Of a stretch of 64,000 bases of DNA, positions 24,960 to 38,737 are shown piece after piece. Within the stretch, counting starts at the first letter, position 1, and every line of letters begins with the position of its first letter. The DNA lies in assembly GCF_024300645.1 (NCBI RefSeq), contig NZ_CP101291.1:372001-436000 (forward strand), written 5' to 3'. The DNA is from Alteromonas sp. LMIT006. Lineage in GTDB: Bacteria; Pseudomonadota; Gammaproteobacteria; Enterobacterales; Alteromonadaceae. The translations under genes were made by a program, and so were the position numbers. The notes beneath the pieces are model-generated. The model saw only the letters and a list, made by a program, of their open reading frames with translations, searched no databases and was not told the DNA's origin.

Positions 24960-25073
24960 GTCTTTGTGCAAAAAACTGACCATTCGGTCTGATTTATGGT
25001 GGTTTTTATGTGTTTTTGTCGTTATGCACTATGTTTAGACTACGTTTTACGTTATTTCTTACATTAGGTGTGC

Positions 25074-27302
25074 ATGACTTGGGTTGCGGGAACACAAGAT
25101 TTTTCTAGCATTCATACTATAATAAAGCAACATGCGTCGCTTGTGGATGGGTTCTCACATTTGCAACCTGTTATTTTGGGTCTGTTTGCCTGTAACCGTG
25201 TAACGATTTATCAGCGCCGGCGGCAACAACAAGATTTGGTTGCCAAATTTAAAAGTGGTAGTCAGACCGTTAAGATTGAAGTACCGATCACTCCACAATC
25301 TATCGCTGGGTATGTTGCTCTCTCCAAGCAATCACTGTTGGTACCGGATCCAAGAGATTCGGACGCCCTAAAACAGATCCATCCTCGGCTTTCTTTTGCT
25401 GAACAATACGATAAGCAAAACCAGTTTGTTACTCACAATATGCTTTGTATTCCTATCGTCCATGCGGATGTTTTACTCGGTGTATTACAATTGATCAACA
25501 AACGCGACACCATGTTTGCCGAAACTGACTTGTTCTTAGGGCAAATGTTAGCTGAGCTTCTGGGTCAACATTTCTGCTATGAACTTGGGGGAACTTTGCG
25601 TCCATGGGATGATTTACTGCATCGAGCACTCATTTCTCGTAAGGCATTGCAAGAGCTGTATTGTGAACCTCGCTATAAAAATAATTCATTGCTAGCGTGC
25701 CAGAAACTGATGAGTGAGCATCGAATAAAGCAATCTGACTTGGGTTCCGCTCTATCATTACATTACCAGGTGCCTTTTATAACGTATAACCCTGATCAAT
25801 ATCATATCTACCACAACGAGCACATGCTCAATTTATCTTATCTTAAACTCAATTTAGTCGTTATTTTGGCTGATGTTCATGCAAAACCTACTATCTTGAT
25901 GGCTGATCCAAATAATGCCAGTCTGATCATGGAAGTAGGTCAAGCATTGAATTTGACTCAGCCCGAAATTGCCGTCGGCTTACCCCAACATATCTTGCAA
26001 TATTTAGGCGAAAATAGCACCACAACTGCCCCCGGTAATATGGATGAAATTTTAGATGAAATATCCACGAGTACTGATGAAGACGACGAACAGATTGATG
26101 AGCTTTCGGATGATGCCCCTGCAATTGTTCGCTTAGTGAGTCGTATTTTACATGATGCGAAACGGTTAAACGCCTCAGATATCCACATTGATCCAGAAAA
26201 AAACGGACCCACTAGAGTTAGAATGCGCGTTGATGGGGTATGTCGTGATTTGAATAACCTCCCTGCCTCGCATCATAATGCCGTCATTGCGCGCATCAAA
26301 ATCATGGCTAATCTTAATATTGCCGAGAAACGCATTCCTCAAGACGGTAAATTAGCGTTCAAATTATCGGGGCGTCTTGTTGAGGTGCGTGTTGCCACAA
26401 TCCCGACAGTAGCAGGTGAAGGAGTGGTTATGCGGATCCTTGCGACTGCTGGCGCAATGCCTTTATCCAAAATGAACATCGTCCCTAGCAATATGCGAAT
26501 GCTACATCAGATGATTTTAAAACCTCATGGTATTTTGTTGGTTGTGGGACCGACAGGCTCAGGTAAAACCACTACTTTGCATGCTATTTTGGGACATCTT
26601 AATACTCCTGATAAAAAAATATGGACCGCAGAAGATCCCGTCGAAATTACCCAACCAGGTTTACAACAGGTACAAATTGCGCCAAAAATTAATTTTACTT
26701 TTGCCACAGCACTCCGAGCGTTTTTGCGCGCCGATCCTGATATTATTTTGATTGGTGAGATGCGTGACAAAGAGACCGCTCATGCAGGTATTGAAGCGTC
26801 ATTAACGGGGCACTTAGTTTTATCGACTTTGCACACCAATTCGGCCCCAGAAACCATCACTCGTTTACTCGATCTCGGCTTAGACCCGGTTAACTTTTCC
26901 GATGCATGTGTTGGTATTTTAGCGCAGCGTTTAATCCGTACCTTATGTCCAGAATGCAAAGAGCATTATACGGCCTCGGAAACTGAACGCGAGTTCATCG
27001 TGCGTCAATACGGGGATAAGTATCTGCAAGAGTTAGATTTGCAGGATGACGTCACTCTTTATCGAGCCAAAGGCTGTGATGCTTGCGGTGATACCGGCTA
27101 CAAAGGTCGCACCGGCGTGCATGAGCTTTTGAGTATGACGCCTGCTCTACGAGCGATGGTCTACCGCAAAGTATCCGCACACGAATTAGCTGAACAAGCT
27201 AGAACTGATGGTATGCGCACTCTCATTCAAGATGCTTTGCGAAAATTGCTCAAAGGCGATACTGATACCAAGCAAGTGCAAGTGTTAGGAGGACTTGATT
27301 GA
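25074..27302 (+). CDS. GspE/PilB-family secretion ATPase with N-terminal GAF domain
   Basis: 742 residues from the ATG at 25074 (AGG five bases ahead); a GTG at 25068 is less well placed. Residues about 10-175 form a GAF-like domain (VPDPRDSDALKQIHP and LCIPIVHADVLLGVLQLINK are typical). A GSPII_E_N/MshEN-like region follows (KLMSEHRIKQSDLGSALSLH), then the ATPase with Walker A GPTGSGKTT near 490, Walker B-like IILIGEMRD, HTNSAPETITRL, and two CxxC pairs (CPEC, CDAC) for zinc. It powers assembly of a type IV pilus or type II-like filament, but no pilin or platform gene adjoins it. GAF fusions to this ATPase are uncommon. Confidence 0.88.
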   Translation: MTWVAGTQDFSSIHTIIKQHASLVDGFSHLQPVILGLFACNRVTIYQRRRQQQDLVAKFKSGSQTVKIEVPITPQSIAGYVALSKQSLLVPDPRDSDALKQIHPRLSFAEQYDKQNQFVTHNMLCIPIVHADVLLGVLQLINKRDTMFAETDLFLGQMLAELLGQHFCYELGGTLRPWDDLLHRALISRKALQELYCEPRYKNNSLLACQKLMSEHRIKQSDLGSALSLHYQVPFITYNPDQYHIYHNEHMLNLSYLKLNLVVILADVHAKPTILMADPNNASLIMEVGQALNLTQPEIAVGLPQHILQYLGENSTTTAPGNMDEILDEISTSTDEDDEQIDELSDDAPAIVRLVSRILHDAKRLNASDIHIDPEKNGPTRVRMRVDGVCRDLNNLPASHHNAVIARIKIMANLNIAEKRIPQDGKLAFKLSGRLVEVRVATIPTVAGEGVVMRILATAGAMPLSKMNIVPSNMRMLHQMILKPHGILLVVGPTGSGKTTTLHAILGHLNTPDKKIWTAEDPVEITQPGLQQVQIAPKINFTFATALRAFLRADPDIILIGEMRDKETAHAGIEASLTGHLVLSTLHTNSAPETITRLLDLGLDPVNFSDACVGILAQRLIRTLCPECKEHYTASETEREFIVRQYGDKYLQELDLQDDVTLYRAKGCDACGDTGYKGRTGVHELLSMTPALRAMVYRKVSAHELAEQARTDGMRTLIQDALRKLLKGDTDTKQVQVLGGLD

Positions 27303-27304
27303 AT

Positions 27305-27883
27305 TTAAAAGGTAAATAACTCTTTATAAATAGTATGATAACACTCAAAATATCGTGCGATTGGATAATCTTCAGTTTGATAGCCAAAAGACCAAGCTTG
27401 CATACCGGCATTGTGTGCCACTTGGATGTCATATAAATAATCTCCAACATACGCAATCTGATTAGGTGCAATATTCCACTGCTTAGCAATATTGAGAAGT
27501 GCGGTGGGATCGGGTTTGGCAGGAGCATCTTCTCGCGTGATTACCGTTTTGATTGGAATCTGGTTACGTTGTAGTTTGACCGCTGTTGCTTCACGGCAAT
27601 TACGCGTCACAATAGCGGTTGGAATGTCTTGCTCATGCAACGCCTCAACAAACGCTTGAGCACCATTGATCCAGTGGGAAGTCTGCGCTTCGACAATTTC
27701 GTGTTGCATAATGATGGCATCGGCCATCTCTGCCACCTCGCTGTCACTTTGGCGTAAGCGCTCCACGTAGCCAAGGATATCTTCGCCTTCAGGGCAATGT
27801 ATGTCTTGACGCATTCGCGCAAAATCTAAGGCCGAGTGCACCAACGTGTCATCTAAATCAAAAATAATACCGAGTGGCAACAA
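27305..27883 (-). CDS. HAD-family phosphatase (phosphoglycolate phosphatase-like)
   Basis: 192 residues. FDLDDTLVHS carries the nucleophilic Asp and its partner, IVTRNCREA is motif II, and KPDPTALL with YVGDYLYDIQVAHNAGM supplies the Lys and the last acidic pair; a small helical cap lies between. No ATG is available: the frame is closed at 27895 and the usable starts are adjacent TTG codons at 27883 and 27880, neither with a clear SD. Its stop lies two bases from that of the convergent ATPase gene. Substrate unknown. Confidence 0.85.
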   Translation of the reverse strand: MLPLGIIFDLDDTLVHSALDFARMRQDIHCPEGEDILGYVERLRQSDSEVAEMADAIIMQHEIVEAQTSHWINGAQAFVEALHEQDIPTAIVTRNCREATAVKLQRNQIPIKTVITREDAPAKPDPTALLNIAKQWNIAPNQIAYVGDYLYDIQVAHNAGMQAWSFGYQTEDYPIARYFECYHTIYKELFTF

Positions 27884-27958
27884 TGTATTGTTCTATTTTA
27901 GTAAGTAATATATTTCTTTACGCATCAGCAACAAAATAGTTTGTAGAGCATATAAAAA

Positions 27959-29224
27959 TTACTGACACTGAATCTTAGGTATATCGGCCCAGTTGGTTGT
28001 GTATTGTGGGGATAAATATTGTCTGCGCATACGCCATTTGGGCACAATTCCTTTGGCCGCCATCCCCAACGTATACTTACCATAACGTTGATTAATCCGA
28101 TCTAAACACGTCATCAACTGTGGGCTGTCTTCTGCTTCATTGAATAGATCTTCTTGGACAAATTCCTGCTGAATCAATTCTGTTGCTCCCAAGCCGGACT
28201 TGTGAAAAATGATCCCTGGACGAAAAATCTGCTCCGCCGCCGCACTAGCCACCCCAACCAACTGCAAGGTGTCAGACGTAGGCACCGCAAACCTGTGCTC
28301 AATCGCTTTTTTATAATATTCGTCACGACTAAATGGGTTGGAATGTGCGAAGATCCTTAACGCTTTGACTGCAGAGCCTTGAGCCCTGACCTTGACCCCT
28401 ACATGCTCGGCATGTAAACACAAAGATTGGCGTAAACTGTTCAAATCCGTCACCTTCTCACCAAACGCTCGGGTTGAAAATATCTGCTGCTTGACGGCTT
28501 TGATCGCATCCCAATGCATGCACACTTCACCGTTGAGTTCCCGCACTGTGCGCTCAACCTCAACTGAAAACTGTTTGCGCATCGCTTTGGGCGAAGCACA
28601 GGCAAGATCCCAAGCAGTCTTGATCCCCATCAGCTCTAACTTAGCGCTGATGCGACGACCTATCCCCCACACATCACCCACCGCCATACGACGCAAAATA
28701 TACTCTCGCTCAACAGGGTTGCTAATGACAGCGATAAAATTACCTTTGAACTTATCTATCTTCTTGCCGGCGTGACTGGCGGCCTTAGCCAATGTAGGTG
28801 TAGATCCAATACCAACCCCCACCGGCAAACGCAAATTGCGCCATACTGTCCAGCGGATCAGTTGCGCGTGGTAGTCCCAACCATACTCTGGCAACATGTC
28901 GGCAAAATGCAAAAAGCATTCGTCAATCGAATATACGTATTGTTGTGGCGCAAACTCAGCAATCACGCCCATCATCTTACGCGACAAGTCATCATATAAT
29001 TCATAATTGGAAGAACGAATGACACAGCCATGTCTTGCCAGAATATCTTTGACCTGATGATATGGCCCAAACTTCTTGACGCCAGTTTGTTTGGCATATT
29101 CGCACATCGCACAGATACACCCGTCATTGTTGGTCAACACCACCACGGGCTTTTGTCGAATACTCGGATCGAATACCTTCTCAGCAGACGCATAGAAGCT
29201 ATTGGCATCAACCAGCGCATACAT
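27959..29224 (-). CDS. umuC: Error-prone DNA polymerase V catalytic subunit UmuC
   Basis: 421 residues, Y-family translesion polymerase. MYALVDANSFYASAEKVFDP carries the first metal Asp and YSIDECFLHFAD the second acidic pair; LPVGVGIGSTPTLAKAASHAGKK and MAVGDVWGIGRR follow, with a UmuC-type C-terminal domain. I place the start at the ATG (29224) overlapping the umuD stop in TGATG; a TTG one codon earlier is also in frame. Coupled to umuD and under the same LexA box, it acts with processed UmuD as Pol V during SOS mutagenesis. Confidence 0.96.
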   Translation of the reverse strand: MYALVDANSFYASAEKVFDPSIRQKPVVVLTNNDGCICAMCEYAKQTGVKKFGPYHQVKDILARHGCVIRSSNYELYDDLSRKMMGVIAEFAPQQYVYSIDECFLHFADMLPEYGWDYHAQLIRWTVWRNLRLPVGVGIGSTPTLAKAASHAGKKIDKFKGNFIAVISNPVEREYILRRMAVGDVWGIGRRISAKLELMGIKTAWDLACASPKAMRKQFSVEVERTVRELNGEVCMHWDAIKAVKQQIFSTRAFGEKVTDLNSLRQSLCLHAEHVGVKVRAQGSAVKALRIFAHSNPFSRDEYYKKAIEHRFAVPTSDTLQLVGVASAAAEQIFRPGIIFHKSGLGATELIQQEFVQEDLFNEAEDSPQLMTCLDRINQRYGKYTLGMAAKGIVPKWRMRRQYLSPQYTTNWADIPKIQCQ

Positions 29225-29646
29225 CAATCTTGTCCCAAATTCATACTGACTTTGCGTGAGGCTCGATGCATGCGCACCGAGCGCACGACAATACCTTCTT
29301 CTTCAAAGGTATCACCGGGGCCAATGACATATGGTTCGTGAAACTCGGCAGCGGACAACAGCACCATCGCCTTGCGATCAAACAGCTTACATACAAAGGC
29401 GCCATTGAGATTGGCCACAATGATATCTAATGAACCTTTGCCCGCGGCACGATCGACAATTAACAGGTCATTATCATAAATCCCATAGCCCACCATGGAA
29501 TCGCCTTTTGCTTGACCAATAAAGGTTGCAGAAGGGTGTTCAATCAAAAGCTCATCTAAATCTAGCCCAAGCTGTTTGTATTCAGCCGCGGGCGATTCAA
29601 AACCGGCAATACCTGCTTGCGCGGCAAGTGGAATAACTTGTAGCAT
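29224..29646 (-). CDS. umuD: SOS mutagenesis protein UmuD (S24 self-cleaving protease)
   Basis: 140 residues, as in E. coli. The self-cleavage site is A-G in IAGFESPAAEY (Cys-Gly in E. coli), the catalytic Ser lies in GDSMVGYGI and the catalytic Lys in AFVCKLF. RecA filaments trigger cleavage to the active form, which joins UmuC. SD GAGG is six bases ahead of the ATG. A near-perfect LexA box lies 16 bases upstream, overlapping a TATACT -10. Confidence 0.96.
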   Translation of the reverse strand: MLQVIPLAAQAGIAGFESPAAEYKQLGLDLDELLIEHPSATFIGQAKGDSMVGYGIYDNDLLIVDRAAGKGSLDIIVANLNGAFVCKLFDRKAMVLLSAAEFHEPYVIGPGDTFEEEGIVVRSVRMHRASRKVSMNLGQD

Positions 29647-29661
29647 AGCTCACCTCACAAA

Positions 29662-29681
29662 TACTGTTTATATATACAGTA
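29662..29681. promoter_or_regulatory. LexA (SOS) box of umuDC
   Basis: TACTGTTTATATATACAGTA differs from the 20-bp gammaproteobacterial consensus at one position and keeps CTG-N10-CAG intact. It overlaps TATACT, a probable -10 for umuD on the minus strand, so bound LexA would block transcription. Confidence 0.93.
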
Positions 29682-29710
29682 TAATATTGGTGAGATTTTG
29701 TAAATATTTA

Positions 29711-29726
29711 CTGTTGATTTATCCAG
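29711..29726. promoter_or_regulatory. LexA (SOS) box of yebG
   Basis: CTGTTGATTTATCCAG keeps CTG-N10-CAG. It covers TTGATT (29714-29719), a likely -35 with TATACT at 29736-29741 after 16 bases, and lies about 47 bases ahead of the yebG ATG. Confidence 0.8.
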
Positions 29727-29772
29727 TGGTTTGCGTATACTTTTATTTATTATTTATCACTGGAGTCAGCCA

Positions 29773-30063
29773 ATGGCCGTCATTACACAATACGTAGTGC
29801 AACACAAAGGGGTGGACAAATTGGTTACAACCGACAAGAAAGCCGCCGATCAATATGACAAGATGCTCAATGTAGCGGATAACTTAGCAGAGTATATCGA
29901 AGCCAAAGGTGTCAAGCTGGCCGATCAAGAGTTAGAGGATCTCAGTATCCTATTAGCGAAACACAAAGACTCGATTCAGAAAATTTTTAAAGGATCAGAG
30001 GCGAGTACGATGCTCGAAGCAGAAAGCGCTGATGTGATAGCCATTGACGAGAGCGCTAGCTAA
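29773..30063 (+). CDS. yebG: SOS-induced protein YebG
   Basis: 96 residues from the ATG at 29773, with GGAG seven bases ahead. The frame is open 14 codons further upstream, but the MAVITQYVVQHKGVDKLVTT start matches YebG. The KKAADQYDKMLNVADNLAEY block and the acidic C-terminal tail are also family features. YebG is a small DNA-damage-inducible protein of unclear biochemical role. It diverges from umuDC and has its own LexA box, consistent with SOS control. Confidence 0.92.
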   Translation: MAVITQYVVQHKGVDKLVTTDKKAADQYDKMLNVADNLAEYIEAKGVKLADQELEDLSILLAKHKDSIQKIFKGSEASTMLEAESADVIAIDESAS

Positions 30064-30212
30064 AAGCAGACCGGATAATTTGGTGTGATACTACATAATG
30101 TATCATTGATCATACCTAATGCTCGCATTTGAGAGTGTATATCCAATGCTTCACTATCAACCAATACTTGTTCGCAATACTGCAAAAAAATACATCACTT
30201 TTTAGGATGGAT

Positions 30213-30232
30213 TACTGTATTTATACACATAA
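30213..30232. promoter_or_regulatory. Candidate LexA (SOS) box ahead of muramidase-holin pair
   Basis: TACTGTATTTATACACATAA matches the LexA consensus at 16 of 20 positions: the left arm is perfect and the right arm reads CAT instead of CAG. TTATAC (30221-30226) and TATAAA (30244-30249), 17 bases apart, could be -35 and -10, so the box would overlap the -35 as it does at yebG. A TTTTGGT...ACCAAAA inverted repeat (30234-30240 and 30257-30263) flanks the -10. Confidence 0.5.
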
Positions 30233-30320
30233 GTTTTGGTGATTATAAAAATAACTACCAAAAATACGATAAACCACAAATCTAAACCATGCTTAAACGA
30301 GTAAAGGACTGGTAGCAAGC

Positions 30321-30869
30321 ATGACATTCAACGATATTTTAGCCCTCACTCTAGATTTTGAAGGTGGTTTCAGTGGTCACAGTGATGACCGTGGTGGCGC
30401 CACCATGTATGGTATTACTTCCAATACTTTGCGGATCATTGCCCAATTAGCACCTGAGCTATCACTTCCAGCGCAAGTGAGTGAATTAACCCAAAAGCAA
30501 GCACACCTGATCTACCAACGCTTCTATTACGAGGCACCTAATATTCACCTTTTGCATCCAGCAGTGCAAGGGGTTGTATTCGATATGGCCGTCAACCATG
30601 GTCCGCAAAAAGCCATCAAGATCCTACAACGTGTGTGTAATTTGTCTGGGATAGTCGCCATTCAAGAAGATGGCATCATAGGACCCATGACGATCCGCAG
30701 CATCGATCGAGTCTATCGAGCCATGGGCAGTCTGCTGGTGAATGCCATCTGTGACGAGAGAGTTTTGTTTTATCAAGCGATCTGTGCCAATGATGCAACG
30801 CAACAGATATTCTTGCATGGCTGGCTCAGGAGAGCTAACGCATTTAAGCGCAAAGGAAACTACACATGA
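30321..30869 (+). CDS. GH108-family muramidase (phage-type endolysin)
   Basis: 182 residues. An N-terminal glycoside hydrolase 108 domain has the catalytic Glu in LDFEGGFSGHSDDRGGATMY, near GITSNTL, and VVFDMAVNHGPQKAIKILQR. The C-terminal part (GIIGPMTIRSIDR to the end) resembles the PG_binding_3 domain. No signal peptide is seen, so export needs a holin, and a holin gene overlaps its stop by 4 bases (ATGA). No phage structural genes adjoin, so this is a free-standing lysis cassette, possibly domesticated. It follows the umuDC/yebG genes and has a LexA-like box about 90 bases ahead. Confidence 0.88.
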   Translation: MTFNDILALTLDFEGGFSGHSDDRGGATMYGITSNTLRIIAQLAPELSLPAQVSELTQKQAHLIYQRFYYEAPNIHLLHPAVQGVVFDMAVNHGPQKAIKILQRVCNLSGIVAIQEDGIIGPMTIRSIDRVYRAMGSLLVNAICDERVLFYQAICANDATQQIFLHGWLRRANAFKRKGNYT

Positions 30870-31558
30870 GTGTATTCAAACGCATTCCTGTGGTCACCAC
30901 ATTACTCGATACGTTGGGCAAACGCATAGATGACTTGTTCACGTCCGATGAAGAACGTGGTGATATTGCCACCCAACAACAAAAAATTGCCTTAAAACAA
31001 CTGGTCACTCAACTCAAAGCGCAACACACTCAACTGCAAATCAATCTACAACAAACTAAGCACCCAAGTTTATTTGTCGCTGGGGCCAGACCCGCCATTA
31101 TTTGGATTGGTGCTGCTGGGTTAGCGTATGAAGCCATCGTTCGCCCTTTAGGGACTTGGTTGATCTTACAAACATTGGATCTCAATGCCATTATGGGACC
31201 ACAAGCTCTACAAAATGCGACACCACAGCAAGTGCAAGCGATATTGGATTTTTATGCATTACCCGGGATGAACACGGAATTGTTTTTGCCCATAATTTTT
31301 GGTGTCTTAGGCATTGGTGGCTTTCGGACATGGGAAAAAATCAACGGCAAAGCCCGTGATAATCTCACTCCACAACACGGTGAATATGAACTCATGGCCA
31401 AAGTTATGCTCGAAAAATACCAAACAGAACTCGACACACCACCCAGCGCATTCATATCAAATCCCAGTATTTCCCAATTTAAAGCTGCTCAGAAAGATGG
31501 TACATTTGTGCCACAATATTACCAATATCAGCCTAACGACAGGGCAAAAGGAAACTAG
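30866..31558 (+). CDS. 3TM-type phage/GTA holin
   Basis: 230 residues. A charged, coiled-coil-prone N-terminal part (about residues 20-65, Gln/Lys-rich) is followed by hydrophobic segments at about 70-100 and 143-157; ARPAIIWIGAAGLAYEAIVR and LPIIFGVLGIGGFRTWEKI are typical of the GTA_holin_3TM (PF11351) family. It would make the membrane hole that releases the overlapping muramidase. The tail is hydrophilic. The glyoxalase gene starts four bases after its stop and may be co-transcribed by read-through. Confidence 0.85.
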   Translation: MSVFKRIPVVTTLLDTLGKRIDDLFTSDEERGDIATQQQKIALKQLVTQLKAQHTQLQINLQQTKHPSLFVAGARPAIIWIGAAGLAYEAIVRPLGTWLILQTLDLNAIMGPQALQNATPQQVQAILDFYALPGMNTELFLPIIFGVLGIGGFRTWEKINGKARDNLTPQHGEYELMAKVMLEKYQTELDTPPSAFISNPSISQFKAAQKDGTFVPQYYQYQPNDRAKGN

Positions 31559-31561
31559 CAC

Positions 31562-32002
31562 ATGCGTTATCTTCATACTATGGTCAGAGTGCGTGACTTA
31601 GAGGCATCATTACACTTTTATTGTGAGTTATTAGGGTTGGTTGAAGTCAATCGCTTTGACCATGAACAAGGGCGTTTTACGCTCGTCTTTTTGGCCGCAC
31701 CTGCCGACGTCGAACGCGCTAAACAAGACAAAGCGCCTTGCGTCGAACTCACCTACAACTGGGACGATGAAGCATACACTGGCGGACGCAACTTTGGCCA
31801 TCTTGCTTATCGCGTAGAAAATATCTATGCGACTTGCCAACGCCTACAGGACGGTGGCGTGACCATTAACCGGCCACCCCGTGATGGACACATGGCGTTC
31901 GTGCGTTCTCCCGATGGGATTAGCATTGAACTGTTACAGGAGGGTGATCACCTTACCCTGCAAGAACCTTGGGCAAGCATGCCAAATACGGGTGAATGGT
32001 AA
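31562..32002 (+). CDS. gloA: Lactoylglutathione lyase (glyoxalase I)
   Basis: 146 residues, VOC fold with two beta-alpha-beta-beta-beta halves. The four metal ligands are visible: His in RYLHTMVRV, Glu in CVELTYNW, His in FGHLAYRV and Glu in SIELLQEG. It converts the methylglyoxal-glutathione hemithioacetal to S-lactoylglutathione. It starts four bases after the holin gene and is followed by ybaK 12 bases later. Confidence 0.93.
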
Positions 32003-32014
32003 TCACGTATCAGC

Positions 32015-32479
32015 ATGACCCCAGCCATTGCTTTGTTACAACAACAGAATATCGCTCATGAAGTTTTATCTTATGAGCATTCCCCCAATGCAACGTCTTA
32101 TGGTTTGGACGCTGCAGACAAGCTCTACTTGAACCCGGCTCAAGTATTCAAAACACTTGTCACAGACTGTTCGGGCACACTGGTTGTTGCTCTAGTGCCC
32201 GTTGCATACTCTCTTAACTTAAAAGCATTAGCCAAAGCAATCGGAACTAAAAAAGCCTGTATGGCCTCTCCTCAAATGGTACAAAGTAAAACAGGATACG
32301 TATTAGGAGGCGTTAGTCCGCTGGGACAAAAAACACGCTTAAAAACCGTCATTGACCAGAGTGCTAGAGAGCTTGACCTGATGTATATTAGTGCCGGCAA
32401 AAGAGGACTAGAAGTCGCTTTGAGACCTACTGATCTTTCTCATCTTTGTTCCGCACAATGGCTAGACATTGCCATATAA
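32015..32479 (+). CDS. ybaK: Cys-tRNA(Pro) deacylase YbaK/EbsC
   Basis: 154 residues. YbaK-type editing enzyme that hydrolyses Cys-tRNA(Pro). HEVLSYEHSPNATSYGLDAA, VFKTLV, the catalytic-Lys region LKALAKAIGTKKACMA and GYVLGGVSPLGQKTRL are family motifs. It lies directly after gloA in the same orientation. Confidence 0.92.
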   Translation: MTPAIALLQQQNIAHEVLSYEHSPNATSYGLDAADKLYLNPAQVFKTLVTDCSGTLVVALVPVAYSLNLKALAKAIGTKKACMASPQMVQSKTGYVLGGVSPLGQKTRLKTVIDQSARELDLMYISAGKRGLEVALRPTDLSHLCSAQWLDIAI

Positions 32480-32540
32480 ATCCGTATCCTAAGAGTTTAA
32501 AAATACAATAATAACAACGACACTTAATAAGCTTTTTCCT

Positions 32541-33569
32541 ATGACACAGCAAAATAACAAGCAAGCGATCTTGAATTACACCCGTTCAATGTACATGGGA
32601 AATTTTGCGCAAGCTCAACTCATGGCTGATGATTTATTTGCGCAAGACAGTACCTTACAACTGTGTTTTCCATTTGAAACATTAGATGATATTACCCACC
32701 TATTCGGAATTTACGATACCCTACTAAACGCTATTCCCGATTTGGAGCGAAGAGATACTATCGTGATCTCCAATGCTACCGATAAAGGCCATGAATGGGT
32801 TGGCTGTTGTGGCTATTACACGGGCGTTATGGTTCGAGATTGGTTAGATATTCCAGCTACAGGGCGGATGGTCTCGATGCGCTTTCATGAATTTTATCGC
32901 TTTGTTGATGGTCGCATAGTCGAAATGCAAGCCATTTGGGATATTCCTGAGCTCATGATACAAGCCAATGCATGGCCTTTAGCTCCGAGTTTAGGTCGTG
33001 AATGGCATGTGCCAGCTCCAGCGACTCAAGATGGCATATCAACTCAGCCTCTTGAGCCAGAGCTCAGCGCAAAAGCAGCGCGCATCGTCACCGATATGTG
33101 TACCGATTTGGGCAATCACGCTACAGGCGGGCCCAAAGCGATGCAACTTCCTAAATATTGGCATGAGCGTTGTAGCTGGTATGGTCCCAGTGGCATTGGT
33201 ACAGCTAGAGGTTTACATGGATTTCGGCACTGGCATCAAATTCCATTTTTGAATGCGCTTCCTGATCGCGATGGCAACCCAGAACACGGGCATATGTTTG
33301 CGGACAACAATTATGTTGGCTATACCGCATGGCCGGGTATGTTTATGACGGTCAGTGATGATGGGTGGCTGGGGATTGTCCCAAATGGCAAACGTATTAG
33401 CATGCGCAGTTTGGATTTTTGGCGGGTCGAAGGTGAAAAAATCCGTGAAAACTGGGTGCTTATTGATTTGCTGTCGGTCTATGACCAACTCGGTTTAGAT
33501 GTGTTTGCACGCCTTAGGGAATTCAACAAAGCGCGAAATTATTTACATCATATGGATTTAGATCTGTAA
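32541..33569 (+). CDS. SnoaL-like (NTF2-fold) protein with two domains
   Basis: 342 residues with two related halves. In each, an aromatic-rich helix region precedes a strand block: GHEWVGCCGYYTGVMVRDWL then GRMVSMRFHEFYRFVDGRIV in the first half (to about 150), and NYVGYTAWPGMFMTVSDDGW then KRISMRSLDFWRVEGEKIRE in the second. This resembles the SnoaL/ester cyclase family with an internal duplication. It overlaps the ABC ATPase start by one base (TAATG), so it belongs to that operon. No enzymatic role can be assigned. Confidence 0.7.
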   Translation: MTQQNNKQAILNYTRSMYMGNFAQAQLMADDLFAQDSTLQLCFPFETLDDITHLFGIYDTLLNAIPDLERRDTIVISNATDKGHEWVGCCGYYTGVMVRDWLDIPATGRMVSMRFHEFYRFVDGRIVEMQAIWDIPELMIQANAWPLAPSLGREWHVPAPATQDGISTQPLEPELSAKAARIVTDMCTDLGNHATGGPKAMQLPKYWHERCSWYGPSGIGTARGLHGFRHWHQIPFLNALPDRDGNPEHGHMFADNNYVGYTAWPGMFMTVSDDGWLGIVPNGKRISMRSLDFWRVEGEKIRENWVLIDLLSVYDQLGLDVFARLREFNKARNYLHHMDLDL

Positions 33570-34267
33570 TGACAAACACCCTACAGGATGTACTCAAGCT
33601 ACACCAAGTTGCGTTTACTCATGCAAACGCAACATCTGAGCACCCGACCCTAGATATAAAACAATGGGTTGTGCGTGACGGAGAGTCTGTATTTTTACAA
33701 GGCAAATCCGGTTCTGGGAAAAGTACCCTGCTTAACCTAATTGCAGGTACCCTTACCCCGCAAAGAGGGAGTATTGAGATAGCAGGTACCGATATAACGC
33801 AACTATCCAATACACAGCGAGATATCTTCCGTGCGCAGTATCTCGGGATTGTGTTTCAGCAATTTAATTTGGTGCCGTATTTAAGCGTTTTAGACAATGT
33901 GCTTATCGCTGGGTATTTTGCCAATAATACGCAAATGGACTTACCAGAAAGAGCACGAGAATTGTTCCGAAGACTGGCAATAAGCGAACACTTACTAACT
34001 CAAGAGGCGAGAAATATTAGTATTGGGCAACAACAGCGTGTGGCTATTGCACGTGCTTTACTCAATCGTCCTCGATTACTACTTGTTGATGAACCCACGT
34101 CAGCGCTTGATGCGGATGCGACACAAAGTTTCATGGATCTTCTCAAACAAGAACAACAGGCCAACAAGTGTGCTATGGTGTTCGTCAGTCATGATCCGAA
34201 CCTAGCTCAATACTGTGATACGCAGATCACAATGTCCCAACTTAATCCCGTCGCAGGAGCAAAATAA
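33569..34267 (+). CDS. ABC transporter ATP-binding protein (LolD/MacB-like)
   Basis: 232 residues. Walker A GKSGSGKSTLLN, Q-loop FQQFNLVPYLSV, an ABC signature in the form NISIGQQQRVAIARAL, Walker B LLLVDEPTSALDAD and switch His in VFVSHDP. The sequence is of the LolD/MacB type, whose partners are FtsX-like permeases; one such gene follows three bases later. Such systems act on envelope substrates, not on simple import. Confidence 0.92.
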   Translation: MTNTLQDVLKLHQVAFTHANATSEHPTLDIKQWVVRDGESVFLQGKSGSGKSTLLNLIAGTLTPQRGSIEIAGTDITQLSNTQRDIFRAQYLGIVFQQFNLVPYLSVLDNVLIAGYFANNTQMDLPERARELFRRLAISEHLLTQEARNISIGQQQRVAIARALLNRPRLLLVDEPTSALDADATQSFMDLLKQEQQANKCAMVFVSHDPNLAQYCDTQITMSQLNPVAGAK

Positions 34268-34270
34268 TTT

Positions 34271-35584
34271 ATGTTATTGCGTCTGGCGATCCGCAGCCTT
34301 AAATTTCGTAAACAATCTGTGTTATTAACATTCATCGCGATGTTTTTGAGCCTCAGCGTATTATTTGCAGTAGAGCATATTCGCGCACAAGTAAAAGAGA
34401 GTTTTACCCGAAGTGTCTCTGGAGTAGACTTAATTATCGGGCCACGCACTGGAGATCTCACTTTGTTATTGTCAAGTGTCTTCCATCGCGGAGTCCCCTC
34501 CACAGCTATGACTCTGGACGACCTCAGTGCTATCAGTAAACATCGAGAAGTTTCTTGGTCGGTGCCTGTCAGTTTGGGCGATACCCATGCTGGGTTCACG
34601 GTTGTAGGTACGAGTACGAATTTTTTTGATTATTTTCAGACCGGTGAGCAGGTGCCGTTGTCATTCGCAAGCGGGCGAGCCTTTGCCGCCAGCAATGAGA
34701 TTGTTATCGGGGCACAGGTGGCTAAATCCTTACATTACCAGGTTGGTCAATCTATCGTACTCGCGCATGGGTTAGGGGAAGTGAGTTTTCACCATCATGA
34801 TGACCACCCTCTATTCATCGTCGGAATCTTAGCTCCCACAGGTACGCCAGTGGATCATGCTTTGTATACCTCTTTGCAAGCGCTTGCACAAGCCCATGAT
34901 AGCCCTCCGAAAAGCCTAAAGCGGCTAGCACGGTATAATCATTCTGACACCCATGCTCATCGCCATGACCATGAGTCAGTGTTGGTAGATGTCTCTCTCC
35001 CTGACCCAAGCAAACCTTTACTTACTATGCCAGAGAACACTGACATCACATCTGCTTTTTTAGGCATAAATAATCCTTTTGCCATACTGAGTTTGCAACG
35101 AATAATTAATCGCGATACCGTTCGACCATTGAGTGCCATTATTCCTGGTGTGACATTAAACCAGCTATGGCAAATTTTGCGTTTTGTAGAAACCACGTTG
35201 CAAGTCATTACTTGGCTAATCGTATTTGCAACTTTACTCGGTTTAGTCACTATGTTGCTGGCCAGTATGCGCGAGAGACAAGCTGAGTTCGCCGTTTTTA
35301 GAGCGCTTGGGGCAAGGCCTGGACAAATATTTTGGCTGATCCAACTCGAAGCCCTTACATTAGCTATTTTGGCGATTTTGGCCAGTATTATGTTATTAAG
35401 CGCTATAATTAACTTAGGTGGCAGTTCACTTTCATTAGCTTTAGGCGTGTCAGTGTCAAGAACGCTGTTGAATAACACGCTGTTGATGAATATTGGTTGG
35501 GTACTTTTCAGTGTGATATTAAGCACCAGCATCCCTGCATGGAAAGCCTATAAAAATAATTTACAAAGCGGTTTACAACGATAA
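34271..35584 (+). CDS. FtsX-type ABC permease with His-rich loops
   Basis: 437 residues: one N-terminal helix (about 15-37), a large periplasmic domain (40-285), and three C-terminal helices, the layout of LolC/MacB/FtsX permeases. The periplasmic domain contains two His/Asp-rich loops, FHHHDDHPLF near residue 178 and NHSDTHAHRHDHES near 225, not normal for LolC/E. They suggest metal (zinc) binding or a metal-related substrate. AGGAG lies 11 bases ahead of the ATG. With the upstream ATPase it forms an exporter-like or mechanotransmission unit; the partner may be the downstream protease or the nearby ZnuD-like receptor. Confidence 0.85.
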   Translation: MLLRLAIRSLKFRKQSVLLTFIAMFLSLSVLFAVEHIRAQVKESFTRSVSGVDLIIGPRTGDLTLLLSSVFHRGVPSTAMTLDDLSAISKHREVSWSVPVSLGDTHAGFTVVGTSTNFFDYFQTGEQVPLSFASGRAFAASNEIVIGAQVAKSLHYQVGQSIVLAHGLGEVSFHHHDDHPLFIVGILAPTGTPVDHALYTSLQALAQAHDSPPKSLKRLARYNHSDTHAHRHDHESVLVDVSLPDPSKPLLTMPENTDITSAFLGINNPFAILSLQRIINRDTVRPLSAIIPGVTLNQLWQILRFVETTLQVITWLIVFATLLGLVTMLLASMRERQAEFAVFRALGARPGQIFWLIQLEALTLAILAILASIMLLSAIINLGGSSLSLALGVSVSRTLLNNTLLMNIGWVLFSVILSTSIPAWKAYKNNLQSGLQR

Positions 35585-35596
35585 AAGGTTAACCTA

Positions 35597-38500
35597 ATGA
35601 CGACAAAAAAAATTGCCATCGTACTGATCTCTATACTGTGCAGTTCCAGCGTATTCGCTGCAGATTATTGGCAACGTTACAGCGCCAAAGAAACTGACCA
35701 GTTTGGTGTTGAGGCCACTTTTTATGGGCTCGAAACAAACGCAATACGTTCTGTTTTACAAAGCGACATGCACATTACCGTACCTGCTGCAGATGGCACT
35801 ATGCATACTTATGCGCTTACTCCTAGTCGAGTGTTACCTGAGGCATTGGCGCGTAAATACCCACAATTACAATCTTATGTCGGTGTGAATGTCGAGCATC
35901 CACAATTGACAGGACGTTTTGACTGGTCACATCGCGGTATGCACGCCATGTTTGATACTCCTTCGCAGGACCGCACTGAGCAGACGTTGCGTACATTTAT
36001 CGACCCTGTCAATGCGAGCAAACACCGTGTTTATCAAGTCAGTGACGAAACCCTACACAATTTTAGGCATCAACATAATAAACTTGCCCCAAAAATCATC
36101 CGTGAGTTATCAGTCAATCAACCAACGGCGACCAAACAACGACGCCTAGTCCAGGCTCGTACATCGAGTAGTATTATCACTTACCGTCTTGCAATCACTG
36201 CCACGGGGGATTATTCGGCATTTATCGGTGCAGAAAACAAAGCAGATGTTATGGCTGAGTTAACGGCAATGACTAATCGGCTCAATGAAGTGTTTTTAGT
36301 CGAGGTCGGTGCACGGTTTGAACTTGTCAGTAACAATGACGATGTGGTTTTTCTAGATGCCGAAACCGACCCTTTTAACAATGACTCAGACGATGGTACT
36401 CTGAATCGAGATGTTCAAGACAATGCGATTGGTGTGTTGAACTATGATATTGGTCATGTTGTGAATTCTGACGGTGGCGGTTTGGCTGTGCTCAACTCAC
36501 TATGTAGTCGAGCCTTCAAAGCCGACGGTCTCTCAGGTATCGCAGCTACAGGCAGTAATGATGCGTTTTGGGTGGATATTGTCGCACATGAGCTCGGTCA
36601 TCAATTTGGCGCAACCCATACTTTTAATAGTGATGCGGGGAGTTGTGATGGGAATGGTTCTGCACAAACTGCTGTGGAGCCGGGTTCCGGCTCAACCATT
36701 ATGTCGTATGCGGGTTTGTGTAGCGATACCAATGTCAGCACCTTCGTGCATGATAATTTTCACGCTATTTCGTTGGCACAGATGCTAGAGCACCGTCAGA
36801 TCGTCGATGAAAATCAATTTGGTTTTTATCTCAACAGCTGTGGCACTGTCAGTGTCAGCGGTAACAATCACCCTGAAGTTGACGCGGGTAATGATTATAC
36901 AATCCCTGCTAATACCTACTTTGAACTCACCGCGACAGCAAGTGATGTCAATCCTGATGATGTCCTCACGTATAGCTGGGAACAAATTGATGCAGCCGGT
37001 TTTGGTGGCGCAAGCAGTTCTGAAGAAGATGTACTAACCGACCAAGGTACAGGGCCGCTCATCCGTGCGCGCACGCCAAGTGTTAGCCCGAGTCGCCATA
37101 TCCCAGATCGCACAGTGCAACGCTCCGGTAACGTCGTGATCGGTGAAGTATTACCGACGACATCAAGAACAATGGACTTCTCCATTACGGTTCGAGATAA
37201 CCAAGGTGGGGTAGCACGTGATGAAATGACCGTGACAGTGGACAATACCGCTGGGCCTCTTGAAATCACGACCGAACTGTCAGGACAGTTTTTTGAGACC
37301 AATCCCATCAGCATAAATTGGAACGTGAATGACACAGACGCTGCGCGTTTTAACTGTGCTACATTGGATGCATTTATCTCTATCAACGGTGGGGTTACCT
37401 ACGACCAACAAGTTGCCAGTAACCTACCAAACAATGGTTCTGCGAGCATCAATTTACCCATCACCAATGGGCGTCAAAACTTCCAAACTTTAATGCTTAA
37501 GTGTTCGGATAATATCTTTTTTGCTTCGCATCGCGGTACGTTTTCGAGTGACATTGAAGGCATTCCATTAACCATTACCGGGCAAAGTATGTTAACCGTG
37601 ACAGAAGATGCGTCAATTACGTTATCTCTGAGCGATTTTAGCACTAACGAAACGGCATCGACGCTGACGGTTTTATCCGGTACTCACTATACGTTTGATG
37701 GCCTCACAGTCACGCCAAGTGCAGATTTTAATGGCAATTTGTCTGTTAACGTACAAGCAAGCGCAGGTGCCAACACCAGTGCATCGTTTGCCGCGCAAGT
37801 CACGGTAACGCCAGTCAATGACCCCCCTACAGCAACCTCATCTACGGCCAGTTTTGTCGCCAACACGACAGACAATGTCATTAATTTGAGTGTTAATGAT
37901 GTGGATGGCGATACGTTGACCATCACCGAAGCCACAACCGATGGTAATGGCACAGTGGTGATTGCTGGAGAGACGTTACAATATACGCCAGAGGCCGACT
38001 TTACCGGTTCCGAGACGATCAGCTATACGGTTTCTGATGGCAGCGAATCGGCTAGCGCAACGGTGACCGTTGATGTGACACCTGAGCCGGTTGTGTTAAC
38101 CGTTTCAGGCTTTACTGAAACAACAACGCAAGAAGATATTCCAGTTCAAATTAGCATCGAAGACTTTACCACGAATATCCAAGCCACGGGCATGGTGATT
38201 TTAAGTGGCGCGAACTACACCGTATCAGATAGCACTATTACCCCTTCGGCGAACTTTAATGGCACCCTTGCTGTTAATGTACAGCTCAGTGCTGGAGATG
38301 TGTTAGCGGACGTGTTTGTTGCGAATATCACAGTTGACCCAGTCAATGATGCGCCTGTGGTCAATGATGAAACTCGCTCAACCACATCAGGAACGGCCAT
38401 TAGTATTAATGTGCTCACCAATGATACGGATGTGGATAACGATACCTTGTCCGTCACCAGCATCGATTATTCGGGTACGGGTAGCGCTACATTAGACAAT

Positions 38501-38737
38501 AACATCATCAGTTATACCTCAGCGGCAAGCTTTACTGGGACAGAAACCATTACTTATGTCGTCACAGATGGTACGGAAGACGTTACTGGGACAATTACTA
38601 TCACGGTTACTGCGCCTCCCGTCTCACCACCATCATCGGGGGGTGGCGGTGGTGGTAGCATGCACTGGCTTCTGCTACTAGGGTTATTTGGCTTAACTCT
38701 ACAACGCCGCTTCTCAATCATTAAGGATATTAAATGA
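35597..38737 (+). CDS. Reprolysin-like secreted metalloprotease with GlyGly-CTERM anchor
   Basis: 1046 residues. Signal peptide MTTKKIAIVLISILCSSSVF (then AADYW), a propeptide-like region to about 190, and a zinc protease domain with VAHELGHQFGATH (HExxH at 331-335, third His 341) and the Met-turn TIMSYAGLC. Downstream are a PKD/cadherin-like region and two copies of a beta-domain (LTVTEDASITLSLSDFS near 670 and TTQEDIPVQISIEDFTTN near 840), alternating with Ig-like repeats (PVNDPPTATSS, PVNDAPVVNDE). The end is GGGGGGS, a hydrophobic helix (LLLLGLFGLTL) and QRR: a GlyGly-CTERM sorting signal, processed by rhombosortase after type II secretion. Likely a surface-attached protease. Confidence 0.9.
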   Translation: MTTKKIAIVLISILCSSSVFAADYWQRYSAKETDQFGVEATFYGLETNAIRSVLQSDMHITVPAADGTMHTYALTPSRVLPEALARKYPQLQSYVGVNVEHPQLTGRFDWSHRGMHAMFDTPSQDRTEQTLRTFIDPVNASKHRVYQVSDETLHNFRHQHNKLAPKIIRELSVNQPTATKQRRLVQARTSSSIITYRLAITATGDYSAFIGAENKADVMAELTAMTNRLNEVFLVEVGARFELVSNNDDVVFLDAETDPFNNDSDDGTLNRDVQDNAIGVLNYDIGHVVNSDGGGLAVLNSLCSRAFKADGLSGIAATGSNDAFWVDIVAHELGHQFGATHTFNSDAGSCDGNGSAQTAVEPGSGSTIMSYAGLCSDTNVSTFVHDNFHAISLAQMLEHRQIVDENQFGFYLNSCGTVSVSGNNHPEVDAGNDYTIPANTYFELTATASDVNPDDVLTYSWEQIDAAGFGGASSSEEDVLTDQGTGPLIRARTPSVSPSRHIPDRTVQRSGNVVIGEVLPTTSRTMDFSITVRDNQGGVARDEMTVTVDNTAGPLEITTELSGQFFETNPISINWNVNDTDAARFNCATLDAFISINGGVTYDQQVASNLPNNGSASINLPITNGRQNFQTLMLKCSDNIFFASHRGTFSSDIEGIPLTITGQSMLTVTEDASITLSLSDFSTNETASTLTVLSGTHYTFDGLTVTPSADFNGNLSVNVQASAGANTSASFAAQVTVTPVNDPPTATSSTASFVANTTDNVINLSVNDVDGDTLTITEATTDGNGTVVIAGETLQYTPEADFTGSETISYTVSDGSESASATVTVDVTPEPVVLTVSGFTETTTQEDIPVQISIEDFTTNIQATGMVILSGANYTVSDSTITPSANFNGTLAVNVQLSAGDVLADVFVANITVDPVNDAPVVNDETRSTTSGTAISINVLTNDTDVDNDTLSVTSIDYSGTGSATLDNNIISYTSAASFTGTETITYVVTDGTEDVTGTITITVTAPPVSPPSSGGGGGGSMHWLLLLGLFGLTLQRRFSIIKDIK

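Follow-up and report, generated by a model that had tools for sequence, protein, structure and literature searches.

Results

In the window, by which we mean the whole 64-kb stretch of DNA analysed here, taken from a genome of 2,533,120 bases in one contig, two genes of phage-type families lie directly after yebG and on the same strand (Table 1). The first encodes a muramidase of 182 aa that matches Pfam Glyco_hydro_108 (1.3e-21) and PG_binding_3 (5.6e-13) as well as the PHROG endolysin class (2e-40), and the second encodes a holin of 230 aa that matches Pfam GTA_holin_3TM (2.2e-10) and the PHROG holin class (1.6e-24); the two ORFs overlap by 4 bases. The first-pass annotation, made from the sequence alone, had described a GH108 muramidase and an overlapping 3TM holin directly after two SOS loci, with no phage genes around. 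This description is borne out: Pfam and PHROGs identify both ORFs as real members of these families, Pfam recognizes umuD, umuC and yebG, and the ten neighbours (25068-38734) match no PHROG of a structural, packaging, integration or lysis class. Several of these neighbours do match PHROGs (unknown function, DNA polymerase, UmuD-like, repressor, HAD and ABC-transporter), and host genes often match such families. Among the seven proteins scanned with Pfam, UmuD is the sole S24 protein. A search of literature titles and abstract openings found no description of this locus, and the main text of the Opacimonas paper (PMC12844025), which in part calls the 2.53-Mb genome of O. immobilis LMIT016 the smallest of its family, does not bring up prophage, holin, lysis or the SOS response.

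Table 1. Genes, LexA-like sites and intergenic gap at the locus (positions in the window)
Feature	Position	Strand	Basis
umuC	27959..29227	-	Pfam IMS and DUF4113
umuD	29224..29646	-	Pfam Peptidase_S24; PHROG UmuD-like
LexA-like box of umuD, near-perfect palindrome	29662..29681	+	1 mismatch, both strands; 10/10 genomes
LexA-like box of yebG, overlapping -35 TTGATT (29714)	29709..29728	+	10/10 genomes; promoter scan
yebG, SOS gene directly upstream of GH108	29773..30063	+	Pfam YebG 8.1e-29
yebG-GH108 gap, weak terminator candidates only	30064..30320	+	Consensus and lenient scans
Third LexA-like box, in one genome only among ten	30213..30232	+	15.0 bits here, 2.5 bits in sister species
GH108 muramidase (endolysin-like) with PG_binding_3 domain	30321..30869	+	Pfam, PHROG, Glu14, fold matches
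PF11351 (GTA_holin_3TM) holin, long form	30866..31558	+	Pfam, PHROG; same site in 10/10 genus genomes
Glyoxalase-family gene, 3 bases 3' of holin	31562..32002	+	Pfam Glyoxalase 9.4e-20; after holin in 10/10

The muramidase has both the GH108 profile match and the Glu of the E-G-G motif, from which its activity is predicted; this residue, Glu14, which we take to be the catalytic Glu, is unchanged in 9 of 9 aligned GH108 rows. No signal peptide is visible by eye. The structure model is good overall (pLDDT 85.9, pTM 0.83), with residues 16-22, adjoining the E-G-G motif, below pLDDT 50. It matched 13 chains of solved GH108 structures at E values of 3.5e-6 to 1.3e-4 (SagA, NMB1012, Sen1395 and TtsA), of which SagA and NMB1012 score above TtsA and Sen1395, and a sequence search of structures matched 6 distinct chains. 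PF05838 has a single match across the 2.53-Mb genome. In the relatives L018 and L019 the motif reads E-G-V, the second G being replaced by V, yet dN/dS between them is low (see below). The holin scores 41.5 bits against the curated PF11351 cut-off of 24.8, and all ten genomes of the genus lie above that cut-off; its C-terminus comprises 40-50 residues that have no counterpart in two species. An AlphaFold2 model of the holin was discarded (pLDDT 47.6, pTM 0.26).

Ten genomes of the genus, the Opacimonas / Glaciecola HTCC2999 group of the Alteromonadaceae, were compared. The holin is at the same place in all ten and the muramidase in eight, and the gene order rplC, rpsJ, T2SE-like ATPase, HAD, umuC, umuD, yebG, (GH108), holin, glyoxalase, ybaK is common to all ten as far as the contigs reach, those of L014 and L074 ending within the ribosomal genes. 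Downstream of ybaK the gene content differs among genus genomes. A search of genome contigs returned 9 loci, every one named Glaciecola or Opacimonas, and the locus is a trait of the genus. Two pairs of genomes have unsaturated dS, and for these dN/dS, given without a significance test, is 0.25 (window-L014) and 0.09 (L018-L019) for the muramidase and 0.22 and 0.03, respectively, for the holin; in the remaining pairs that have both genes it ranges from 0.03 to 0.10, at dS 0.8 to 2.0. The comparison shows two genes that appear to be kept by selection in the genus. The tree built from seven neighbouring genes was not rejected by the holin alignment (p-AU 0.34, though the program flagged too few replicates); vertical descent would give this result.

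Two further features of the surroundings emerged from these comparisons. HAD and yebG directly adjoin in two other genera (L236, L241) and umuDC lies between them in the window genus (27305-30063), which points to a probable insertion of umuDC, as of the pair, at this place. When the window is compared with L014, dS exceeds 2 for the ABC-transporter and ftsX-like genes at 33569-35584 and is 0.02 to 0.29 for the other genes compared, a pattern that likely reflects local replacement by recombination.

The LexA-like boxes of umuD and yebG are present in all ten genomes and hardly shift in position: relative to the start of yebG they begin at -109 to -120 and -62 to -73, respectively. At yebG the box covers part of the -35 of TTGATT-16-TATACT, one of 2 promoter-like sites in 29600-32100, where shuffling leads one to expect 6.0. 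Between yebG and the muramidase a consensus scan of the window gap (30064-30320) found no terminator-like site, and a lenient scan found two weak hairpins of -7.4 and -5.2 kcal/mol. Under the lenient scan each of the ten genus gaps, which are 80 to 257 bases long by the gene starts used, has at least one weak hairpin (-4.0 to -13.1 kcal/mol) with a poor T run, the strongest being that of L016 at -13.1 kcal/mol with 4 T among the next 9 bases. The gaps of L017-L020 have ATCATCTATACT in common, by eye a possible -10, and the gap may hold a promoter of its own. Among other genera of the family, a LexA-like box precedes yebG in 8 of 8 loci examined out of 27, and neither the pair nor umuDC is found within 9-11 kb of yebG at those 8 loci.

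A third LexA-like site, TACTGTATTTATACACATAA, lies within the gap of the window genome. It agrees with the LexA consensus, taken here as TACTGTATATATATACAGTA, at 16 of 20 positions and is 88 bases from the muramidase start. Allowing up to 3 mismatches, the pattern TACTGTATATNNATACAGTA occurs at 2 places in the 64-kb window (3 strand matches), where 0.04 are expected. With a matrix built from 20 boxes of the window genome and the genus, the site at 30213 reaches 15.0 bits and ranks third in the window, behind umuD (30.0) and yebG (21.4); because the boxes of umuD and yebG were part of the training set, their scores are circular and their conservation rests on the sequences. Sites scoring like the box at 30213 occur at 0.05 per 64 kb (20 simulated windows), and the chance of one in such a gap is P = 0.0015 (2000 simulated 257-bp gaps). 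The score is at the low end of the 20-box set, whose leave-one-out range of 11.9 to 29.7 bits is flattered by the likeness of boxes from related species. Looser patterns do not help: the bare core CTGT-N8-ACAG with one mismatch was found 19 times against 23 expected, no better than chance, and TACTGT-N8-ACAGTA is uninformative genome-wide (960 matches per strand against 1662 in the control). Across the whole genome the LexA pattern gave 13 strand matches at 9 places, compared to 4 strand matches for the reversed control. Six of the 9 places precede umuD, recA (2 boxes), recN and a sulA-like ORF (2 boxes), with genes named by eye, 2 are inside ORFs and 1 is the box at 30213. The sulA-like ORF (L242) is 123 aa long and SulA-like by eye, has its two boxes at 1753899-1753950 of the genome, and matches no Pfam family at E 0.01.

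The first-pass annotation had proposed that LexA acts through the box at 30213, which was said to overlap a possible -35. Its 16 matching positions and its 88-base spacing stand and the match is better than chance; the -35 is only a weak candidate, part of a promoter-like site at 9/12, and the promoter scan of 29600-32100 did not report a promoter there. In L014, the nearest species (muramidase 95% identical), 4 of the 20 aligned bases are different and the score is 2.5 bits, and in the other nine genus genomes no site exceeds 9 bits from the yebG start to the holin end. Between the window and L014 there are 4 changes in the 20 box bases and 18 in the remaining 237 gap bases, numbers that are small and give no sign of protection of the box from change. 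The annotation had itself named a box not conserved in relatives that keep the gene pair as evidence against its proposal. This is the pattern observed, since the box is in one genome of ten, degraded in L014 and absent from eight others, and each of these nine has kept the pair or at least the holin. We rejected the box as a conserved switch on the ten-genome comparison, and direct membership of the pair in the LexA regulon through this box lacks conservation at the sequence level (1/10 genomes); the box is at most a local addition of the window species.

Both genomes that have no muramidase, L073 (Glaciecola sp. HTCC2999) and L074, have holins without the C-terminal tail, of 177 and 181 aa compared to 221-230 aa in the other genus members. 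These genomes are 82-83% complete and the locus itself is unbroken. Holin dN/dS between them is 0.038, at saturated dS. On a three-gene tree of the genus, rooted with another genus, they nest among muramidase-bearing species, in a clade with L017-L020 supported at 100 with an inner node at 49 (the position of L016 has 48), so that one loss of both muramidase and tail is the simplest account; the rooted tree puts GH108 at the genus ancestor. These two genomes, which represent one event, suggest that tail and muramidase may work together and that the holin may do something alone.

Searches were extended to 395 genomes of the family. The holin profile matched 32, the ten of the genus at >340 bits and the remaining 22 at <60 bits, their open frames being 134-185 aa long. 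The GH108 profile matched 49 of 395; outside the genus, context was read fully for the matches above 190 bits, those of g23 and g24, and L022-L025 were searched for the window genes alone. A second type of GH108 and long-holin pair was found in four g24 genomes (five copies, L278-L282; G390 has two) and in G031 of g23 (L021), PF11351 being confirmed by Pfam for L021 only. The g23/g24 GH108s form a separate clade (100) and the holins are hardly alignable with those of the window genus, on which grounds we rejected a common origin. Such pairs were thus captured at least 2 times in the family, once beside SOS genes. By eye, four of the five g24 copies are near rpsF and a MOSC-like gene, three of them also near a readable rplI, and no SOS gene was recognized alongside any of the six g23/g24 pairs. 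No LexA-like site above 11 bits is within 3 kb of these pairs; such sites lie farther off in L021 (3.4 kb) and L278 (5.3 kb), and a consensus scan of the L021 locus found no strong LexA-like box. The position of the g23/g24 pairs away from SOS genes counts against a fixed or general SOS role. A pentapeptide-repeat protein follows the g23 pair (L021:7929-9610).

Viral contigs yielded 59 GH108 and 120 holin relatives, and 139 viral loci were compared, 59 brought in by GH108 and the best 80 of the 120 holin relatives. Both genes occur in 15 of the 139, several of which are near-copies of each other, with GH108 first and on the same strand. The GH108 tree drew on hits in 80 loci, among them 58 of the 59 GH108 viral loci, and on the 9 aligned GH108 rows, with hits below 140 residues or with a stop removed; this left 84 sequences, 75 of them distinct, and the tree was midpoint-rooted. 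The GH108s of the genus are one clade (support 100) among viral GH108s, with the viral contig L289 as sister (98). Besides GH108, L289 has a holin and an ORF that by eye resembles a tail fibre, and its holin matched the g23/g24 type and not that of the window genus. Given this holin in the viral contig nearest to the muramidase, muramidase and holin may not have arrived together. The GH108 of L289 (2989-4179) is longer by a C-terminal part of some 200 residues, which by eye may be a second wall hydrolase. Among named phages there were 627 GH108 records, with 34-37% identity among the top rows, and 30 holin records, with 27-33% among the top rows.

Particle genes were sought with four Pfam families. 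The ten genus genomes have no match to PF05065 (capsid) or PF04860 (portal), PF04984 (sheath) was absent from nine of ten, and PF03237 (terminase) had no match in the window genome. Three terminase hits and one sheath hit are in G004, one terminase hit is just above the cut-off in G008 and one is below it in G006, none of which is the window genome.

Discussion

The locus can be read in the following way. A phage-type muramidase and holin came to adjoin yebG downstream in the ancestor of the genus, were kept by selection, and are transcribed from the yebG promoter by read-through; DNA damage would thereby increase their expression and lead to lysis or leakage, and we give this reading a probability of roughly 0.45. 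In it, the pair would be the distal part of the yebG transcription unit and damage would act through that unit, as the neighbourhood and the protein families suggest. The holin would open the inner membrane, the signal-less muramidase could then cross and cut the wall, and some of the damaged cells might lyse or leak. The presence of the pair in a genome as small as 2,533,120 bases also speaks for this reading. The first-pass proposal is supported in part: the pair is kept in the genus, without phage genes of the classes named above among its ten neighbours in the window, and the box is in 1/10 genomes. SOS coupling itself is not refuted and is plausible by a route other than the box at 30213, since the pair lies downstream of yebG and on its strand, the gap has weak terminator candidates only and the yebG and umuD boxes are in 10/10 genomes. 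With the box at 30213 unshared, the same boxes conserved and the terminators of the gap weak, the yebG promoter is the conserved way for damage to reach the pair, and we infer read-through from it as the preferred reading. The glyoxalase gene and ybaK follow in the same direction, and the pair could ride in an ordinary transcript.

Should LexA instead bind the box at 30213, repress a promoter of the pair's own and on damage release it, part of the population would lyse; the 16/20 match, its 15.0 bits, its low chance in such a gap and the possible weak promoter that it overlaps fit this, but the score at the low end of the box set and the degraded site in the sister species and its absence from eight others make it a decidedly improbable account. 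We consider it unlikely that the pair is a secretion device of the type 10 kind, working constitutively or on another signal, by which cargo leaves the cell across the wall. Parts of PMC10847048 and PMC9527704 give the name T10SS to holin/endolysin/spanin clusters outside phages, and TtsA and Sen1395 share their fold with the muramidase, whose matches to SagA and NMB1012 are nonetheless stronger; on the other side, the stretch from yebG to glyoxalase holds neither a separate spanin gene nor an obvious cargo gene in any of the ten genomes. The holin might also be the functional core, a membrane-depolarising stress protein for which TisB is the comparison, with the muramidase an accessory lost with the tail in two species. 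The holin in ten genomes against GH108 in eight, the single loss in L073 and L074 and the low dN/dS between their holins (at saturated dS) speak for this, and it is nonetheless doubtful, as GH108 dN/dS is also below 0.3 where the gene is present and the contrast comes from two genomes and one event, both genomes 82-83% complete. Equally doubtful is a bolder combination, that a yebG DNA-damage operon took over a phage lysis pair as a death or leakage arm without phage, particle or toxin, and that one branch cut it down to a tail-less holin, leaving SOS-triggered depolarisation without wall cutting.

The idea that gene-transfer particles are released, raised in the first-pass annotation, found no support, as PF05065 and PF04860 are absent from 10/10 genomes and PF03237 from the window genome. 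That the pair is the lysis module of a GTA or tailocin encoded elsewhere in the genome is thus extremely improbable, and was rejected for the four families searched, none of which supplies a structural gene in the window genome (PF04984 being absent from 9/10). Pfam does describe PF11351 as serving gene-transfer release. The RcGTA cluster itself lacks a clear lytic enzyme, and the lysozyme rcc00555 and holin rcc00556 are proposed for this agent in part of PMC3423380. A functionless leftover of a decayed prophage would account for two proteins of phage families whose GH108 is placed among viral sequences; it is disfavoured, and in our estimate very improbable, by intact frames, low dN/dS throughout the genus and ten neighbours without a structural, packaging or integration family. 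The genes look like a domesticated phage lysis pair rather than a prophage remnant.

Several known systems resemble the pair. Like the T10SS of Serratia (ChiWXYZ), Yersinia entomophaga (YenLC) and Salmonella (TtsA), it is a host-kept phage-type holin with a signal-less wall hydrolase outside phages, by Pfam and PHROGs, and the modelled muramidase has a TtsA-like fold. It differs in standing behind yebG/umuDC, in its PF11351 holin and in having no separate spanin gene or linked cargo between yebG and glyoxalase, for which reason we did not file it under T10SS. We did not file it under GTA either, because no structural gene of the searched families was found; the RcGTA genes are likewise a lysozyme and a holin apart from the structural cluster, but the window genome has no GTA structural genes of these families. 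The alpBCDE genes of Pseudomonas aeruginosa are chromosomal lysis genes tied to DNA damage and include a putative holin, according to part of PMC7969949. They share with the pair the chromosomal site and the holin, the tie to damage being theirs and for the pair conjectural, and they differ in having their own repressor AlpR and antiterminator AlpA, with no GH108 named in that part of the article. The pyocin endolysin Lys is also of phage type, and RecA dependence and explosive lysis of a subpopulation are features described for it in part of PMC4834629; Lys lies within the pyocin cluster, in contrast to the pair, which has no particle genes among the families searched. Similar too are the g23/g24 pairs (L021, L278-L282), chromosomal muramidase and long holin with no recognized phage neighbours, which differ in clade, holin, site and the lack of recognized SOS genes. 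Judged by its parts, the pair may work like the lysis genes of T10SS, alp, Lys and RcGTA. Chromosomal lysis cassettes taken over from phages are known; what is new is the unusual and fixed SOS neighbourhood of this pair.

The comparison of ten genomes, in two of which the muramidase and the holin tail are naturally missing together, opens the question to direct tests. Should the pair respond to DNA damage, its marine genus, one species of which is associated with diatoms and has a very small genome, would possess a switch for death or leakage connected to its repair genes and could release DNA and organic matter without any phage.
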